Shown: positions 9,867 through 40,331 of the stretch, piece after piece
Layout: every line of letters begins with the position of its first letter
How positions within the stretch are numbered: the first letter of the stretch is position 1
Assembly: GCA_026125895.1 (NCBI GenBank)
Contig: JAHCKG010000035.1
Coordinates: forward strand, 1 to 40,331
DNA length: 40,331 nucleotides
Direction: 5' to 3'
Source: Pseudolabrys sp.
GTDB lineage: Bacteria > Pseudomonadota > Alphaproteobacteria > Rhizobiales > Xanthobacteraceae
Notes under the pieces: model-generated
Database searches by the model: none
What the model was told of the DNA's origin: nothing
Seen by the model: the letters and a program-made list of their open reading frames with translations, nothing else
Translations under genes and position numbers: made by a program

Positions 9867-10808
9867 TTAGGGCGTCGGAGCTGGATCGGTCGTTTCGAGC
9901 GATCGAGCGTTTTTCTTTACCAGCTCCAGGCGTAGCGGAGATATTCCAAACCGCTTTCGAGCTCGCCGCACGCCGTATCGCTTCTTGCCGTAGCTTTCTG
10001 TCGCTGTCCTTGTCGATTTATGATTGATGAGAACCGAGATTTCCTCCTTGCGGTATCCACTTGCCTTCATGTTCGAAATTGCGACGTGGCGAAATACGTA
10101 AAGGCTGAGCGGCCGGATTTTGACCCTGCGGGATGCGTCGCGGATGCGTTTATACATGACGTCTTCCAGTATTTTTTTATTGCCGTAGTGCTCAATCCAA
10201 TGATTGGTTTCGATGATCCAGGCTCCCAGTTTTTGGAGCACAGCGGGGCTGTATTCGTTTAGATGAACCTCGCAACGATCGCATAGGCCTCGGCCTTGTG
10301 TATGTTTTGCGGCGCCTGCGCTGAGGCAGGTGCCATCGAGGCGGAGATCCAAAAGTTCTGTAGGCCGCCAACCGATTCGCGTTGCGACCGTCACGTAGCC
10401 CGCGATCCAACGGTCGAATGGGTCTTTACTGACCCGCAGATGACGCTCCAGGCGCCTGATGTCGGTCAGCTTGGCAGACTTGCGCGGCCTAAAACGCGGG
10501 CGACCTGGCTCCGGACGGGCATTTTGCAATCGGTCGATGGCCATGTCTGCTGCGCGAGGATCGACAAGTTCGCAGGCGCCGAGCGGCCGGACCAATTGCA
10601 GGAGTGCTGCAGATAGCTGTCGTGTGTAGGCCGGCGACCAGCGGCCGGTCTGCCCTAGGAACCAGTCTGCGCAGGCCAAACAGCGTTCTGGGTACTCGAT
10701 GCTTGCGTCATCGGCCGGGCACTCCCGCGAGTACTGGGCGATCAAATTGCGGGCCAGTTCGTGATAGCGATCATAGGTCCGATCGGTCTTCTCGTGCAGC
10801 TTCATCAT
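9867..10808 (-). CDS. Tyrosine recombinase-like protein with unusual active site
   Basis: Protein of 313 aa from ATG 10808, chosen for GGAGAGAAG just upstream; longer frames are possible but carry no ribosome site. The C-terminal half (~115-290) has the phage-integrase fold: Arg I at R148 (IGWRPTELLDLRLD), the second box at LYVFRHVAISNM, H263 in LINHKSTRTAT, and the nucleophile candidate Y273. In the second box the usual H-x-x-R reads Y237-x-x-R240, so the first histidine is replaced by tyrosine. Two CxxC-like cysteine pairs occur (C43/C46, C176/C179). The gene lies 580 bp off the 3' end of tRNA-Gln, as an island integrase would. Two operator-like repeats precede it. Confidence 0.75.
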   Translation of the reverse strand: MMKLHEKTDRTYDRYHELARNLIAQYSRECPADDASIEYPERCLACADWFLGQTGRWSPAYTRQLSAALLQLVRPLGACELVDPRAADMAIDRLQNARPEPGRPRFRPRKSAKLTDIRRLERHLRVSKDPFDRWIAGYVTVATRIGWRPTELLDLRLDGTCLSAGAAKHTQGRGLCDRCEVHLNEYSPAVLQKLGAWIIETNHWIEHYGNKKILEDVMYKRIRDASRRVKIRPLSLYVFRHVAISNMKASGYRKEEISVLINHKSTRTATESYGKKRYGVRRARKRFGISPLRLELVKKNARSLETTDPAPTP

Positions 10809-10821
10809 CGTCTTCTCTCCG

Positions 10822-10855
10822 CGTTGGTCAACCTCGCGGTCGACGTTGGTCAACC
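10822..10855. promoter_or_regulatory. Tandem CGTTGGTCAACC operator-like repeats
   Basis: CGTTGGTCAACC occurs at 10822-10833 and 10844-10855, exactly 22 bp (about two helical turns) apart. Each contains the palindrome GTTG-GT-CAAC. They lie directly upstream of the recombinase ribosome site, so they may bind a dimeric regulator on the promoter or leader. Confidence 0.55.
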
Positions 10856-10904
10856 GGGTCGCTGGCATGAAGAAACATGCCGGCTTGAAAGTGCAAAATT
10901 CCAA

Positions 10905-11390: not shown

Positions 11391-11464
11391 TGGCTGGGGA
11401 ACTAGGATTCGAACCTAGACAAACAGAGTCAGAGTCTGTTGTGCTACCGTTACACCATTCCCCA
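11391..11464 (-). tRNA. tRNA-Gln (anticodon CTG)
   Basis: Complete cloverleaf on the minus strand. The acceptor arms TGGGGAA (from 11464) and TTCCCCA pair fully; the D-arm region GGTGTAACGGTAGCAC, the anticodon stem ACAGA/TCTGT around loop CTCTGAC with anticodon CTG, and the T-arm CTAGGTTCGAATCCTAG are all present. The discriminator is G and CCA is encoded (11393-11391). tRNA 3' ends are common island attachment sites, and a recombinase gene lies downstream. Confidence 0.97.
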
Positions 11465-30069: not shown

Positions 30070-30243
30070 GACCTTGCTCCGGGTGTGCCATGACGGCGGC
30101 TAATGGAGCGTTAGTCTAACGCGCGAAACCGCGGCCGATCCGGCGAAACTGCGGGCAACCTTAACCGGCGCGGTTAAGGAAAGAGCCGGTGGAAGGCCGT
30201 TTTGGCCCATTGCGGGCGGCCCGCGACTTGCTTAATTCAAGGC

Positions 30244-31842
30244 ATGAACCCATCCGCTCAGAAGCCTTCCGCCGCCGTCGATCCCGGCCATCCCGATCAC
30301 GACAAAGTGTTGATCGTCGATTTCGGCTCGCAGGTCACCCAGCTCATCGCCCGCCGGGTGCGCGAGGAAAAGGTCTATTCGGAAATCGTGCCGTTCCAGA
30401 AGGCCGAAGAGGCCTTCCGCACCATGCGGCCTAAGGCCGTGATCCTGTCCGGCGGTCCGGCCTCGGTGCTCGACAAGAACGCGCCGCTGGCGCCGGCGGC
30501 GATCTTCGAGTCGGGCGTACCGGTGCTCGGCATCTGCTACGGCGAGCAGGCGATGGCGCAGCAGCTCGGCGGCAAGGTCGAGGCCGGACACCACCGCGAA
30601 TTCGGCCGCGCCGAAGTCGAGATCACGGCGGATAGTCCCTTCTTCGAGGGCGTCTGGGTCAAGGGCGAGAAGTATCCCGTCTGGATGAGCCACGGCGACC
30701 GCGTCACGCAACTGCCGGAAGGCTTCAAGGTTCTCGGCAAGGCGCCGGGTTCGCCGATCTCGATCATCGGCGACGACGCGCGCAAATTCTACGCCATGCA
30801 ATTCCATCCCGAGGTGGTGCACACGCCACACGGCGCGGCGCTGCTGCGCAACTTCGTGCGCAAGATCGCCGGGCTTACCGGCGACTGGACCATGCGCGCC
30901 TTCAAGGACGAGGCGATCGAGAAGATCAGGGCGCAGGTCGGCAAGGGCAAGGTGATCTGCGGCCTGTCCGGCGGCGTTGATAGCGCGGTGGCTGCGGTGC
31001 TGATCCACGAAGCGATCGGCGATCAGCTGACCTGCGTGCTGGTCGATCACGGCCTGATGCGCCTGGCGGAAGCAAAGAAGGTCGTCACGATGTTTCGTGA
31101 CTCCTACAACATCCCGCTCGTGCATGTGGACGCTTCCGACACCTTCCTCAAGGCGCTCGAGGGCGTCGACGATCCGGAGGTCAAGCGCAAGACCATCGGC
31201 AAGCTGTTCATCGACGTGTTCGAGGCCGAGGCCAAGAAGATCGGTGGCGCGCAGTTCCTGGCGCAGGGCACGCTCTATCCCGACGTGATCGAGAGCGTGT
31301 CGTTCACCGGCGGGCCTTCGGTGACGATCAAGTCGCATCACAATGTCGGCGGGCTGCCCGAGCGCATGAACATGAAGCTCGTCGAACCCTTACGCGAACT
31401 GTTCAAGGACGAGGTGAGGGCGCTCGGCCGCGAGCTCGGCCTGCCGGAGTCCTTCGTCGGCCGCCATCCGTTCCCGGGGCCGGGCCTCGCCATCCGCGTG
31501 CCCGGCGCGATCACCAAAGAGAAGCTCGATATCCTGCGACTCGCCGATGAAATCTATATCGAGGAAATCCGCCGCTGCGGTTTGTACGACGATATCTGGC
31601 AGGCTTTCGCCGTGCTGCTGCCGGTGAAGACCGTCGGCGTCATGGGCGACTTCCGCACCTATGAATATGTCGTCGGTCTGCGCGCCGTGACCTCGGTCGA
31701 CGGCATGACCGCCGACTTCTTCCCCTTCGACATGAAGTTCCTCGGCATGGTGGCGACGCGCATCATCAACGAAGTCAAGGGCGTCAACCGCGTCGTGTAT
31801 GACGTGACGAGTAAGCCGCCGGGCACGATTGAGTGGGAATGA
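30244..31842 (+). CDS. guaA: GMP synthase (glutamine-hydrolysing)
   Basis: Two-domain enzyme of 532 aa converting XMP to GMP with ATP and glutamine. Start ATG 30244; an upstream in-frame ATG at 30202 lacks support. The class I amidotransferase domain (~20-215) has C98 in [10 protein letters not shown] and the His/Glu pair in [11 protein letters not shown]. The ATP-pyrophosphatase domain carries the PP-loop LSGGVDSAV, and the C-terminal dimer domain ends in PPGTIEWE. Its 3' end appears to be the attachment site of the mobile element that begins right after it. The reading frame is intact, so integration restored the 3' end. Confidence 0.98.
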
Positions 31843-31957: not shown

Positions 31958-32230
31958 TGACGGTCTTTATGACGGTCCCGGGAATCCGCAGACAGCCCTT
32001 CAATCGCAAGACCGTCACCCTTTGTTCGGCAGCACCTGCTTGGAAATCTATATAAGCCATTGATAATACATATAAATTTATATATCTTGACGGTCTTTTT
32101 CGTGACGGACAAAATGACGGTCAAATCCAGATCATCCTAGCCTTTGCGAGGCTGAGAATGTTGACCGACACTGAGCTTAAGAGCCTAAAACCAAAGACAA
32201 AAAACTATAAGGTGACGGACCGTGACGGTA
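31958..32230. repeat. Cluster of TGACGGTC arm-type sites around the integrase start
   Basis: TGACGGTC occurs at 31958, 31970, 32088 and 32115 on the plus strand and inverted (GACCGTCA) at 32010. One-base variants are TGACGGAC at 32103 and 32213, and TGACGGTA at 32223. Pairs 31958/31970 and 32103/32115 have the same 12-bp period. Between them is a strongly AT-rich stretch (32048-32087). Octamers this frequent beside an att site are best read as integrase arm or excisionase sites. Confidence 0.75.
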
Positions 32231-33417
32231 TGTACGTTCTTGTCATTCCATCAGGTACAAAAACCTTCCGAATGGACTACCGCCTGAATGGCCGGCGCGA
32301 GACGCTGACCATTGGTCGCTATGGCCCTGGCGGCTTGTCGCTCGCCGAGGCGCGCGATCGCTGTCTCGCTGCGAAGAAAGATGTCGCGGAGGGGCGCTCG
32401 CCCGCCCAAGAAAAGCAGCGCGCGAAGCGGCGCGTTGCCCTCGGCGACACGTTCGGCGTCGTTGGTCAGCGCTGGATCAAGTCGGCGCCGATGGCGGACA
32501 GTACCCGCGCTATGCGCAAGGCGATTTTTGATCGGGACATACTGCCTGTCTGGAAAAATCGTCTTCTTACCGAGATCACACCCGACGACCTACGGGCCCA
32601 GTGCGTCAAGGTGAAGGATCGTGGAGCGCCGGCGACCGCGATTCATGTTCGCGACATCGTCAAGCAGATTTACGCCTTCGCGATATTGAATGGCGAGAAG
32701 GTCCCAAATCCGGCGGAGGAGGTTGGCCCTGCTTCCATTGCGACCTTTGCCCCGAAGGACAGGTCGCTCTCGCCAACCGAAATACGGATCATGTCCGAGC
32801 AACTGAGGCACGTTCCGACGTTGCCCACCATTCGGCTTGGTCTTCGGCTCATCCTGCTCACGATGGTGCGGAAGAGCGAATTGCTCGACGCCGTTTGGAG
32901 CGAAGTGGACTTTGAGAACACCGTCTGGAGCATTCCCAAGGAACGGATGAAGCGCCGCAAGCCGCACAATGTCTATCTGTCGCGGCAATCACTGGACATC
33001 ATGATCGCACTTAAGACGTGCGCGGGAAACTCCCGCTATCTTTTTCCGTCCCGATACGACGCGGATGCTCCAATGTCACGAGCAACATTCAACCGCATCA
33101 CGACGGCAATTGCTGATCGCGCCAAGAAGCTCGGATTGGCCCTGGAGCCATTCACGGTCCATGATCTGCGGCGAACCGGGTCAACGCTGCTGAACGAGAT
33201 CGGCTTCAATAGCGACTGGATTGAGAAGTGCCTGGCGCACGAAGACGGCCGCAGCTCGCGTGGTGTCTACAACAAGGCCGAGTACGAACACCAACGCCGT
33301 CACATGCTACAAGAGTGGGCGGATATGGTGGACGCTTGGGAGCAAGATCGAAATCACACGCCGGTGCTCTATCCGCCTGCAATGCAGTTTCCAGGCGTGA
33401 TGGCTGCTACTGCCTGA
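32158..33417 (+). CDS. ICE tyrosine integrase, DUF4102 (P4-like) type
   Basis: Site-specific recombinase of 419 aa. Residues ~1-85 form the arm-DNA-binding DUF4102 domain (DGMYVLVIPSGTKTFRMDYR, TIGRYGPGGLSLAEARD); ~95-180 the SAM-like core-binding domain; ~205-385 the catalytic domain. Catalytic residues are R238 (TMVRKSELLDAVW), H335-x-x-R338 (HDLRRTGST), H361 (LAHEDGRS) and nucleophile Y371. A probable K lies in the KERMKRRK hairpin. It lies 315 bp after guaA, reading away from the junction, and should catalyse integration into and excision from the guaA 3' end. Its 3' end overlaps the convergent AlpA-like gene by 11 bp. Arm-type octamers flank its start. Confidence 0.95.
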   Translation: MLTDTELKSLKPKTKNYKVTDRDGMYVLVIPSGTKTFRMDYRLNGRRETLTIGRYGPGGLSLAEARDRCLAAKKDVAEGRSPAQEKQRAKRRVALGDTFGVVGQRWIKSAPMADSTRAMRKAIFDRDILPVWKNRLLTEITPDDLRAQCVKVKDRGAPATAIHVRDIVKQIYAFAILNGEKVPNPAEEVGPASIATFAPKDRSLSPTEIRIMSEQLRHVPTLPTIRLGLRLILLTMVRKSELLDAVWSEVDFENTVWSIPKERMKRRKPHNVYLSRQSLDIMIALKTCAGNSRYLFPSRYDADAPMSRATFNRITTAIADRAKKLGLALEPFTVHDLRRTGSTLLNEIGFNSDWIEKCLAHEDGRSSRGVYNKAEYEHQRRHMLQEWADMVDAWEQDRNHTPVLYPPAMQFPGVMAATA

Positions 33418-33700
33418 CCGGGCGCGCCTTCCGCTGCCGCACATCGGGTAAGGGGGCTCGCTTAATCAGCGACGCCTCTGAGGCGCGCCGTCGTTGATCG
33501 ATCCATTCTTCGACCTCTGTCAGATCCCAAACGACGCATCGCGCCGTGAGGTAGAAGCGGCGGGGAAACTCTCCGCGCTGTTCGAGTTCGTAGATGGTGG
33601 TGTCTGCCAAGGGCACGATCTGCCGCAGCTCAGCGCGTCGGATCGCTTTCTTTGTTGCTAGCGACATGGTGCGTCGCGGGCCGTTCGTAATTTTGTTCAT
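33407..33700 (-). CDS. AlpA-family wHTH regulator
   Basis: Protein of 97 aa from ATG 33700; ATG 33667 (MSLATKK) is an alternative, and neither has a clear ribosome site. It contains the AlpA-type DNA-binding pattern LRQIVPLADTTIYELEQRGE, FPRRFYLTARCVVWDLTEVE and EWIDQRR. AlpA proteins activate or assist excision of P4-like elements, so this may be a directionality factor or a regulator of int. A second wHTH gene of excisionase type lies at 38445, so the element may have two such factors. It overlaps int tail-to-tail. Confidence 0.88.
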   Translation of the reverse strand: MNKITNGPRRTMSLATKKAIRRAELRQIVPLADTTIYELEQRGEFPRRFYLTARCVVWDLTEVEEWIDQRRRASEASLIKRAPLPDVRQRKARPVRQ

Positions 33701-34061
33701 GGAAAGATACAAACAGATGGCCGCCCCTGCGAAAAGATGGCGATGCCTCGGAGGGCGAACACCCAAGTGGTAGGGCGTAGCGCGTCGTAAAAATACCGGG
33801 ACATGGGAAAAGATTTCGGCCTCAGCGTATTTTGGTTTCACGCTATCGCAGACTACTGACGACGTCAGCCCATAGCCCTTCCTTTGCACTCCTTGATCGC
33901 CGCGGAACGCGGCTCGTCCAAATGGGCCGCAAGGTCGTCGATATGGACGCCCTTCGCTCTGCGACGCCTCCATACGATCGAGCACAGCGACTTCATGTTC
34001 AAAGCCATGGAATAGCGCTTTTGTCGCTGCTACCTATCCTGCAACTGGGGAGGGAGCGACC
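33701..34061. other. Intergenic stretch upstream of AlpA-like and HEPN-like genes
   Basis: About 360 bp between divergent genes. Reading frames here lack starts with ribosome sites, and I see no recognisable product or strong repeat. Promoters for both genes presumably lie within. Confidence 0.45.
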
Positions 34062-37121: not shown

Positions 37122-37385
37122 ATGAGTAAGTCCGCTTTCAAGGACAGCCCGCCGCTGACCGACCGGGTGAACGCCTATGATGAAGCCCATCTCGCCACGT
37201 ATCTGCGGCTGCTCGACGCAGCCGAGGAGGGGGCCGACTGGCGTGAGGTGGTCAAGATCGTGTTCGGCCTCGATCCTCACGCCGATCCGCAGCGCGCGAA
37301 GCAGATGCACGACAGTCATTTGGCCCGCGCACGCTGGATGACCGAGCACGGTTATCGGCATCTTCTCCAACCGCGGATGCAGTGA
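37122..37385 (+). CDS. DUF2285 protein, QseM-type antiactivator
   Basis: Protein of 87 aa consisting of one DUF2285 domain: LTDRVNAYDEAHLATYLRLL, DAAEEGADWREVVKIVFGLD, and HLARARWMTEHGYRHLL. This is the pattern of QseM, which in the Mesorhizobium symbiosis ICE binds and blocks both the quorum-sensing activator TraR and the excision activator FseA. Here it lies between the Cro/C1-type repressor and a frameshifted FseA-type gene, supporting the same function. No traR/traI is visible in the window, so FseA may be its main target here. The ribosome site is weak. Confidence 0.85.
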   Translation: MSKSAFKDSPPLTDRVNAYDEAHLATYLRLLDAAEEGADWREVVKIVFGLDPHADPQRAKQMHDSHLARARWMTEHGYRHLLQPRMQ

Positions 37386-37529: not shown

Positions 37530-37853
37530 ATGGAGCCGCTTCAAGACTGGCGATCGCCGCAATTTGAGACCGAACTGGGCCACCTCGATCGTGGTGGCGT
37601 GAGTTTCGAGTTTCTCCGCCGCAACACGCAGTACCGGCAGGACTACGCAACAGCTTTGACGGAGATCGCCGCCGGCGGCACGACGAGGACGGAAGCCATC
37701 AACCGACTCTCGCGCCGCTGGGGATTGGCGTTTCCCGGCAGACCCCTCTGCATCGGCAATGACAGCGCAGCCTGTCTGGCGGGCGCAATGCTTTCCTGCC
37801 ACATTGATTGTCACTGCTGCCCCGGACGGCTTCTCGGCCTCTTCGCTGCCTGA
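37530..37853 (+). CDS. FseA-type activator, zero-frame part (DUF6499)
   Basis: Frame of 107 codons from ATG 37530, preceded by GGGAGGAAAC. The first ~68 residues form a DUF6499-type domain (WRSPQFETELGHLDRGGVSF, EFLRRNTQYRQDYATALTEI, RLSRRWGLAFPGRP). The last ~38 residues in this frame are odd: five or more cysteines and no resemblance to a domain, as expected for out-of-frame reading. The continuing homology is in the +1 frame, where a DUF2285 domain follows (37759-38325). In ICEMlSymR7A the equivalent genes msi172 and msi171 are joined by programmed +1 frameshifting to make FseA. The truncated zero-frame product is probably the default. Confidence 0.85.
   Translation: MEPLQDWRSPQFETELGHLDRGGVSFEFLRRNTQYRQDYATALTEIAAGGTTRTEAINRLSRRWGLAFPGRPLCIGNDSAACLAGAMLSCHIDCHCCPGRLLGLFAA
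37731..37748 (+). other. Candidate +1 programmed ribosomal frameshift site
   Basis: In the zero frame this reads TTT CCC GGC AGA CCC CTC. A P-site CCC could slip +1 onto CCG (37734-37737) or CCC (37743-37746, run CCCC). The first option yields WGLAFP-ADPSASAM, which fits my recollection of fused homologues (WGLxFPADP) best; the second has the better re-pairing tRNA. The +1 frame has no stop for at least 60 nt before it, and no ribosome site precedes the ATG at 37759. Confidence 0.6.
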
Positions 37854-38325
37854 TCCGCGGGCGCTTCCGATCCTCGGCCAATTGACCGGCGACGGATTGC
37901 ACGTCATCGCCGCTGATAGCGAGGGCGATCACCAGCTCTGGTTCGACACCGGCGCGGAACCGGTTCAGGCAGCGATCGTCCTTCCGATCGATCTGCATTT
38001 CTGGTGGCGTCATCGCAATGCCGGTCGCCTGGTGCGGCGGCTGGAGGGGAAGCGCGCGGGCCGCTGGCCGCGCGAACAGCGCTTGTCTCCATTCCAGCTT
38101 CATCGCGCGGCGCTGATGCTGCGCGCCTGGGATGGCGTCCAATCCGGCGCGTCGCGTCGCATCGTCGCGGGCGTCCTTCTCAACAGGAACGTCGAAGCGC
38201 TGCGCGCCATCGACTGGAAGAATGCGCCCGAGCGGCGCCAGCTCGCGCGCATCCTGAAAGCCTGCCGCGACATGATCGAGGGCGGCTATCTGCGCTGGCT
38301 CGCGCAGCACCATCCCGACCGCTGA
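37759..38325 (+). CDS. FseA-type activator, +1-frame part (DUF2285)
   Basis: Continuation in the +1 frame; translated product probably begins upstream by frameshifting from 37530 rather than at ATG 37759, which lacks a ribosome site. Sequence landmarks: VWRAQCFPATLIVTAAPDGF, a beta-rich middle (LWFDTGAEPVQAAIVLPIDL), and a C-terminal DUF2285 domain (LSPFQLHRAALMLRAWDGVQ, SGASRRIVAGVLL, CRDMIEGGYLRWLAQH). Fused length would be about 264 aa. FseA activates the excisionase gene rdfS in the Mesorhizobium ICE and is inhibited by QseM; here the excisionase-like gene follows at 38445 and the QseM-like gene precedes. Confidence 0.85.
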   Translation: MTAQPVWRAQCFPATLIVTAAPDGFSASSLPDPRALPILGQLTGDGLHVIAADSEGDHQLWFDTGAEPVQAAIVLPIDLHFWWRHRNAGRLVRRLEGKRAGRWPREQRLSPFQLHRAALMLRAWDGVQSGASRRIVAGVLLNRNVEALRAIDWKNAPERRQLARILKACRDMIEGGYLRWLAQHHPDR

Positions 38326-38395
38326 TGCGAGGGGGGACATTTCCTTAGAGACCCCCGATTTTTGTCACTCCGCCGAACCGCGGATTCTTCGCCAT

Positions 38396-38444: not shown

Positions 38445-38687
38445 ATGCCGGAGAAGACCGAGAAGACTTGGCCGCGCTTCGTGCGCACCCCCGATGCCGC
38501 GCGGCTTCTCGGCCTCTCACCACGTACGCTTGAGAAGCACCGCTGCGACGGCACTGGGCCGGTCTATCACAAGCTCGGCGGCCGCGTGGTCTACACCATC
38601 GCCGACCTTGAGGCGTGGATCGACGCCTGCGCGCGGCAGTCCACGGCTGAATCCGTCGCCGGCCATGTGGCCGGCGCAGCGCGCTGA
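38445..38687 (+). CDS. Excisionase-like wHTH protein (RdfS-type)
   Basis: Protein of 80 aa from ATG 38445 (GGAG eight bases before; the in-frame TTG 38427 is weaker). HTH_17/MerR-like domain: FVRTPDAARLLGLSPRTLEK, HRCDGTGPVYHKLGGRVVYT, IADLEAWIDACARQ. The same domain forms RdfS, the recombination directionality factor that drives ICE excision. It is placed directly after the FseA-type gene and eight bases before repA, so excision and replication functions are probably co-transcribed. Generic AlpA-type transcription regulator is the alternative. Confidence 0.85.
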   Translation: MPEKTEKTWPRFVRTPDAARLLGLSPRTLEKHRCDGTGPVYHKLGGRVVYTIADLEAWIDACARQSTAESVAGHVAGAAR

Positions 38688-38695
38688 CCGTCGCC

Positions 38696-39532
38696 ATGTC
38701 GTCGCGCCGCCCATACGGCGATCAACAGCTCGAACTGTTCCGGGCCCGCGCCGGCGATATCGCCGCGCGCGACGCACAGGATCTCATGTCCTGGCCGTTC
38801 TTCTCGCTCGCCAAAGTCCGTCGCGTAACGCCGATCGACTTCCGCATGGGCGAAGTGTCGATCCGCGTCCAGGCGACCGCCGAACACGGCATGGCCACGA
38901 TCTGGGACGCCGACGTTCTGATCTGGGCCGCCAGCCAGATCGTCGACGCACGCGACCGCGGCCTGCGCACGTCGCGCCTGATGGCCGCCACGCCCTATGA
39001 GATCCTCACCTTTGTCGGCCGCAGCGATTCCGGACTGAGCTACGATCGTCTGAAGGCGGCGCTCGATCGGTTGCAGTCCACCACTGTCGTCACCTCGATC
39101 CGCCAGCCGTCCGAGCGGCGGCGGCACCGCTTCTCCTGGATAAATGAATGGAAAGAGCGGCTCGACGCGACCGGGCGGCCGCTCGGCATCGAACTGATCC
39201 TGCCGGACTGGTTCTTTGCCGGCGTCATGGACGCCGCCTTGGTGTTGACCATCGACCCGGCGTACTTCCGGCTCACGGGCGGCATCGAGCGGTGGCTGTA
39301 CCGCTTGGTGCGCAAGCACGGCGGCAAGCAGGAATACGGCTGGCAGTTCGACTTCCGCTACCTGCACCAGAAATCGGGCAGTACCGCGAAGCCCTACGAC
39401 TTCGCCTGCGACCTGCGCGCGCTTGTCGCGCGACAGTCGCTGCCCGGCTACGTCCTGGGCATCGAACGGATGCCGGACAACGGCATGGAACTGCTGACCT
39501 TCCGGCCCGTGCCGCAGACGGCACGGGGATAA
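38696..39532 (+). CDS. repA: Replication initiator RepA (RPA family)
   Basis: Plasmid-type replication initiator of 278 aa. Family blocks: DLMSWPFFSLAKVRRVTPID, ATIWDADVLIWAASQI, MAATPYEILTFVGRSDSGLS, RLKAALDRLQSTTV, and GIERWLYRLVRKHGGKQEYG near the end of the DNA-binding region. It starts eight bases after the excisionase-like gene and is followed by three iterons (39557-39620), the expected binding sites. On ICEs such as the Tn4371 family a repA/parA block allows transient replication of the excised circle. No truncation seen. Confidence 0.93.
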   Translation: MSSRRPYGDQQLELFRARAGDIAARDAQDLMSWPFFSLAKVRRVTPIDFRMGEVSIRVQATAEHGMATIWDADVLIWAASQIVDARDRGLRTSRLMAATPYEILTFVGRSDSGLSYDRLKAALDRLQSTTVVTSIRQPSERRRHRFSWINEWKERLDATGRPLGIELILPDWFFAGVMDAALVLTIDPAYFRLTGGIERWLYRLVRKHGGKQEYGWQFDFRYLHQKSGSTAKPYDFACDLRALVARQSLPGYVLGIERMPDNGMELLTFRPVPQTARG

Positions 39533-39785: not shown

Positions 39786-40331
39786 ATGATCGTCGCTCTG
39801 CTCAACCAGAAAGGCGGCGTAGGCAAGACCACGCTCGCCACGCACATCGCCGGCGAGCTGGCGATGCGCGGCCAGCACGTCGTTCTGCTGGACGCCGACC
39901 CGCAAGGCTCATCGCTGGACTGGACGCAGCGCAGAAGCCAGCAAGGCTTGCCACGGCTGTTCGGCGCCGTGGGCCTCGCACGCGAAACGCTGCACCAAGA
40001 GGCGCCAGAACTCGCCAGGCGGGCCGATCACGTCGTCATCGACGGGCCGCCGCGCATCGCCGCCTTGGCGCGCTCCGCGCTGCTGGCGGCCGAGCGCGTG
40101 CTGATCCCGGTGCAGCCCAGCCCTTACGACCTGTGGGCCAGCGCCGAGATGGTGGCGCTGATCCGCGAGGCGCAGGTGTTCCGGCCTGCGCTGCGCGCGG
40201 CCTTCGTCATCAATCGGCGCGTCAGCACCACCGTGATCGGGCGCGAAGCGCGCCAGGCGCTTGCCGACCAGCCGCTGCCGGCGCTACGCGCGGAAGTGCA
40301 TCAGCGCATCGTGTTCGCCGACAGCGTGGCC
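39786..40331 (+). CDS. parA: ParA-family partition ATPase (cut by window end)
   Basis: First 182 codons of a ParA/Soj-type ATPase; the frame runs off the window. The start ATG 39786 follows GGAGGG at 39773-39778; an in-frame ATG 39771 overlaps that site and is less likely. Deviant Walker A LNQKGGVGKTTLATH (6-20), Walker A' LDADPQGSSLDW and Walker B HVVIDGPP are intact. It should segregate the excised, replicating form of the ICE, or stabilise the element, together with repA and the iterons upstream. A partner parB is not visible in this window. Confidence 0.95.
   Translation, partial: MIVALLNQKGGVGKTTLATHIAGELAMRGQHVVLLDADPQGSSLDWTQRRSQQGLPRLFGAVGLARETLHQEAPELARRADHVVIDGPPRIAALARSALLAAERVLIPVQPSPYDLWASAEMVALIREAQVFRPALRAAFVINRRVSTTVIGREARQALADQPLPALRAEVHQRIVFADSVA

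Follow-up and report, generated by a model that had tools for sequence, protein, structure and literature searches.

We analysed a window of 40,331 nucleotides from a Pseudolabrys sp. draft genome (contig JAHCKG010000035.1, forward strand), which carries near its right end two overlapping plus-strand open reading frames. The zero-frame ORF (37530–37853, 107 amino acids) begins with a DUF6499 domain (PF20109, now named Trans_reg_dom in Pfam; E = 6.3e-19, residues 6–69) and continues into an out-of-frame tail, and its ATG at 37530 has a good ribosome site, GGGAGG, seven bases upstream. The second ORF ends at 38325 and lies one base ahead of the first; this +1 frame is open from 37666 to 38322 and bears a middle domain (PF22792, E = 1.3e-12) and a C-terminal DUF2285 DNA-binding domain (PF10074, now RovC_DNA-bd; E = 1.1e-22). 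If a shift occurs, the +1-frame part would be used from about 37735, placing the second half of the gene at 37734–38325. The DUF6499 half has SFEFLRRN at 37602, the window's version of the AWEFLRRN-like motif of the FseA family. The overlap of the two ORFs, their coordinates and the stretch proposed for slippage, TTT-CCC-GGC-AGA-CCC-C at 37731–37746, had been described in an earlier sequence-only reading of this DNA and agree with our Pfam matches. The fold of FseA-family proteins is already published, and the second ORF alone gave no meaningful match to solved structures (best E = 0.34).

Genes related to known partners of FseA flank this split gene on the same strand. Immediately upstream, a lone-DUF2285 gene (37122–37385) encodes a homologue of QseM (PDB 7uqt, E = 2.8e-17; PF10074, E = 8e-9) and is a candidate antiactivator gene. 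Downstream follow an RdfS-like winged-HTH gene (38445–38687; PDB 8dgl, E = 7.8e-8; HTH_17, E = 4.2e-10), encoding a candidate excision factor, and, after a gap of only 8 bases, repA, encoding replication initiator protein A (38696–39532; PF10134, E = 3.6e-87). A gene for a parA-type ATPase (39786–40331; PF13614, E = 2.2e-22) then runs off the window end. On the other side, a tyrosine integrase gene (32158–33417, plus strand; PF00589, E = 4.5e-23) lies after guaA (30202–31842), and the element probably starts there, with the integrase at its left end.

FseA and its +1 frameshifting are established in ICEMlSymR7A of Mesorhizobium japonicum (PMC10359603; PMC5009743), and about 61% of 4709 FseA homologues are described as split at a conserved +1 frameshift site (PMC10359603). 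The window gene resembles FseA (Msi172-Msi171) of that element in having DUF6499 and DUF2285 halves in overlapping frames offset by +1, as well as a UGGGGG-like stretch before the site and QseM and RdfS partners (PMC10359603). Given that FseA frameshifting and an rdfS-repA-parA gene order have both been published, we regard the window gene as a further FseA of the described type. Judged from its sequence, it is a typical FseA-type gene whose halves are predicted to be joined by a +1 slip, in line with the likeness to msi172/msi171 that had been proposed earlier, and its protein probably switches on excision of a mobile element. The setting differs from that of R7A, where fseA follows traI2 and rdfS is the first gene of another operon with traF and msi107 (PMC5882170). 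In the window, fseA sits directly between the qseM-like gene and the rdfS-like gene with repA, and we found no traI beside it.

We scanned genome contigs with the window's +1 frame and obtained 23 loci in named genomes, with 44–96% identity. A DUF6499 motif lay 5' of the match in 22 of these (L055 had none upstream), and the offset between the two frames was +1 in 22/22. Family searches detected DUF6499 in 61/297 genomes of the order and in 43/398 genomes of a phylum sample, the two samples sharing genomes. For a broader census, most of the listed places were fetched and 158 loci, some of them copies of each other, were classed with profiles built for this purpose, leaving out L001, L002 and L063 (own genome). 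DUF6499 was matched in 156 of them (all except L055 and L152): 112 had overlapping frames offset by +1, 30 were fused, two were offset by +1 without overlap, one by +2 without overlap, and 11 had no DUF2285 found alongside. An overlapping +2 offset occurred in none of the 156. On a tree of 133 distinct loci (103 split, 30 fused), the split or fused state changed 8 times, while 200 shuffles gave 27 changes on average and never fewer than 23, and the window fell into a clade of 25 split genes only (support 0.90), which two fused genes adjoin. The split state is thus inherited.

The identical +1 offset in 22/22 relatives and the split-only clade of 25 also indicate that the split is no assembly error, which the sequence-only reading had named as the outcome that would overturn it. 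A sequencing error or a decayed gene could be imagined for a draft genome that is 82% complete and 5% contaminated, and decayed copies do exist, as in L037, whose DUF2285 ORF ends early. However, the same offset recurs in independent genomes, a nearly identical split copy is present in L033 (96% identity), and in the window both frames are open and the site is retained, which leaves this explanation with practically no probability. L037 shares its genome with a second copy, L038, and lacks a QseM-like match in its neighbourhood.

The slip site was examined in the +1 loci with a recognisable WG motif (112/114), reduced to 103 distinct loci by removal of 9 identical copies. The codon equivalent to 37731–37733 is TTT in 101 of the 103, and the base after it is C or T in 101/101, so that the site of the window is in register with nearly all split homologues, as expected for a gene putatively shifted at the conserved FseA position. 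These counts, and those for CCC below, include L009, whose register was set by eye. Elsewhere in the gene TTT is not the usual phenylalanine codon: in 100 of these split loci, Phe was written TTT in 49/164 codons upstream and 164/549 downstream of the site, and at the corresponding place fused homologues had TTT in 4/28. Fisher tests of this codon bias returned tiny values but ignore the kinship of the loci; since the loci are related and the counts are not independent, we rely on the counts rather than on these values. The two exceptions are L064, which is split at +1 but has TGT where others have TTT, and L121, where UUU_UGA occurs one codon later than usual and, as in prfB, puts a stop codon into the A site.

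The sequence-only reading had offered two CCC positions for the slip instead, at which tRNA-Pro would move from CCC to CCG (37734) or to CCC (37743). CCC_G is indeed present at 37734, TTT is followed by CCC in 60/103 distinct split loci, and a slip at the first CCC would give the same protein as a slip at TTT. However, the codon after TTT is something other than CCC in 43/103 loci, mostly CGC (29), and these genes are equally split and have TTT; the second CCC is present in only 47/103. To locate the joint, we built a profile from 30 homologues that are natively fused and scored every possible joint in the window against it. The best single score was 93.5 bits at 37725 (TTG), followed by 92.4 bits at 37728, 37731 (TTT) and 37734 (first CCC), 90.6 at 37737, 87.3 at 37743 (second CCC) and about 80–81 near the ATG of the second ORF. 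This peak places the joint at about 37725–37737. It does count against TTT that TTG at 37725 exceeds both TTT and the first CCC by 1.1 bits; within this range, codon conservation favours TTT. The second CCC was rejected as the slip codon, being about 5 bits below TTT and the first CCC in addition to its low retention, and a joint there would also lose an Asp-Pro retained in many fused relatives. Given that slips at TTT and at the first CCC yield identical protein, the joint scan leaves room for the latter, and overall we consider slippage on either CCC improbable. The simplest reading is that tRNA-Phe slips from UUU to UUC, which makes TTT_C at 37731–37734 the likely slip site.

Slippage during transcription, with the mRNA gaining or losing bases at TTTCCC, would likewise produce mixed frames. 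Transcriptional slippage normally requires longer runs, whereas the runs here are just three T and three C, and the C run is not CCC in 43/103 loci; its probability is close to nil. A translational slip at UUU has a familiar parallel in prfB (release factor 2), where +1 frameshifting involves a G-rich, Shine-Dalgarno-like stretch 5' of a slippery U-rich codon. The window likewise has a G-rich stretch before a slippery U-rich codon; unlike in prfB, the A site holds no stop codon here, and L121 alone has UUU_UGA. The stretch in the window is GGGGAT (37720–37725), its form of the ribosome-site-like UGGGGG remarked on at the FseA shift site (PMC10359603). In the WG motif, Gly is encoded by GGG in 70/101 split loci and in 4/28 fused ones, compared with 38/222 Gly codons upstream, and it counts against our main reading that the window has GGA rather than the usual GGG in this stretch. 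Downstream of the site, RNA structure was unremarkable in six sequences (z from −1.65 to 0.30, the stretch of L049 being three bases out of register).

The zero-frame tail (37740–37853) is rich in cysteine and matches nothing in Pfam at E values up to 1, confirming its earlier description as domain-free. In 13 of 16 near-clade sequences (L037, L043 and L044 were left out), we compared the four-fold sites of the +1 frame and found differences at 0.424 of sites in the overlap (636/1499) versus 0.421 elsewhere (2236/5306), with 93/168 sliding windows showing change as low as or lower than the overlap. Given that change at four-fold sites is equal inside and outside the overlap, the tail looks like a by-product, and a functional Cys-rich tail was rejected. 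One observation favours a role for the tail: its stop lies at one position in 16/16 near-clade members (the window and L033–L047). In the window, however, the letters of this stop belong to codons for Pro and Asp in the +1 frame.

The two halves could also be separate proteins made without any frameshift, the second starting from the ATG at 37759 or from another internal start. Such an ATG does exist, and separate reading has been argued for rihF1b/rihF1a of Azorhizobium, where PMC9601964 calls frameshifting absent, each ORF having its own start and stop. However, in the window no ribosome site precedes the ATG at 37759, as the sequence-only reading had remarked, this ATG is retained in only 1/22 relatives, and the second ORF has no conserved start codon: some ATG, GTG or TTG occurs near that place in 9/22 relatives, and in 9/22 there is none among the 40 codons that follow the site. 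Two separate proteins would also leave the conserved TTT unexplained, and we consider this explanation very improbable. Given the conservation of the site in other split loci, the claim made for rihF1b/rihF1a in PMC9601964 merits a check against TTT_Y.

Taken together, it is very likely that the window gene is the fseA of an integrative mobile element, in which a slip at UUU would join the halves, FseA would activate rdfS-repA and QseM would restrain it. Translation would begin at 37530 and mostly stop at 37853, producing a DUF6499 protein without a DNA-binding domain. Sometimes, at what would be a low rate, the peptidyl-tRNA-Phe would slip from UUU to UUC at 37731–37734, perhaps with help from the G-rich codons of the WG motif 5' of it, and reading would then continue in the +1 frame to 38325. 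The full FseA would activate the downstream promoter of the rdfS-like gene and repA, while the QseM-like protein, encoded just 5', would keep FseA in check; this would keep excision rare, and perhaps also the replication of the excised circle.

A candidate FseA box for this activation lies at 38332–38359, with a G-run arm and a C-run arm just 5' of TTGTCA (38362–38367). We compared this region in 18 sequences, leaving out L043 and L044 as near-copies of L042. The block 5' of the RdfS-like gene, GGGGGAC followed by TGTCACTCCG, is kept in 18/18, and TGTCACTCCG lies 83–84 bases 5' of where the tblastn match to the RdfS-like protein begins, whereas the C-run (CCCC) arm that would complete an inverted repeat is present in 10/18 and absent in 8/18. 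In its own genome, the G-run motif has this single place. The published FseA box, an inverted repeat through which FseA activates rdfS, consists of two hexamers with a spacing of 15 or 16 bp that adjoin the −35 element (PMC10359603), and our candidate is likened to it by spacing, not by letters.

The repA/parA block had been read as a contrast to the Mesorhizobium element, but repA following an rdfS-like gene is common in this group. Of the 23 named loci, 21 have the QseM-like gene and 19 have the RdfS-like gene together with repA, two of the other four (L033 and L046) ending too early to show it; most of the relatives L034–L054 (e.g., in Taklimakanibacter, Nitrobacter, Afipia and Mesorhizobium) have the qseM-like gene, split fseA, rdfS-like gene and repA in a row. 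Unlike the window, none of the 23 named loci had a parA match (best E = 2.9); in the five that were examined further, genes of the transfer type come next, for DUF2840, signal peptidase, DUF736 or SLT. The order rdfS-repA-parA is also described for Tn4371-family ICEs of beta- and gammaproteobacteria (PMC2789088), and the window has an RdfS-like gene, repA and parA in this order. The likeness is one of gene order, in a window that ends inside parA, and FseA is unmentioned for these ICEs in the consulted passages of PMC2789088. Members of that family further have a Tn4371-type integrase at an 8-bp attB, a parB remnant, rlxS, traG and trb genes. The compact qseM-fseA-rdfS-repA arrangement raises the option that excision and replication share one switch: we tentatively suggest that one UUU_C slip could turn on an rdfS-repA(-parA) operon, and with it excision, replication and partition of the circle at once. 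If true, the antagonist qseM and the activator would share one compact cassette in which a single translational accident gates two steps.

The window gene is a well-supported addition to a family of frameshift-controlled mobile-element regulators that is widespread but frequently mis-annotated. What the present comparison may add is that TTT, rather than CCC, is invariant across split genes, which offers a testable point, the retained codon being UUU followed by a pyrimidine; it also brings out a compact qseM-fseA-rdfS-repA cassette, in which FseA may gate excision and replication together. The own genome, an 82% complete draft, had no TrbI match, which does not prove absence, and no DUF2840 match, the controls likewise remaining without a match. 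A LuxR-type autoinducer-binding domain was matched once in it, on a different contig. Within the window, an AlpA-type gene (33407–33985, minus strand; PF05930, E = 1.1e-11) and the integrase gene are convergent, and the former is a second candidate for encoding an excision factor besides the RdfS-like gene; given that the integrase has an AlpA-type neighbour of its own, the RdfS-like protein may act with a different integrase or have another purpose. Farther to the left, a weak integrase match under the curated cut-off (9867–10904, minus strand; E = 3.7e-5) lies near a tRNA-Gln gene (11391–11464, minus strand), and this region is perhaps the end of another island.
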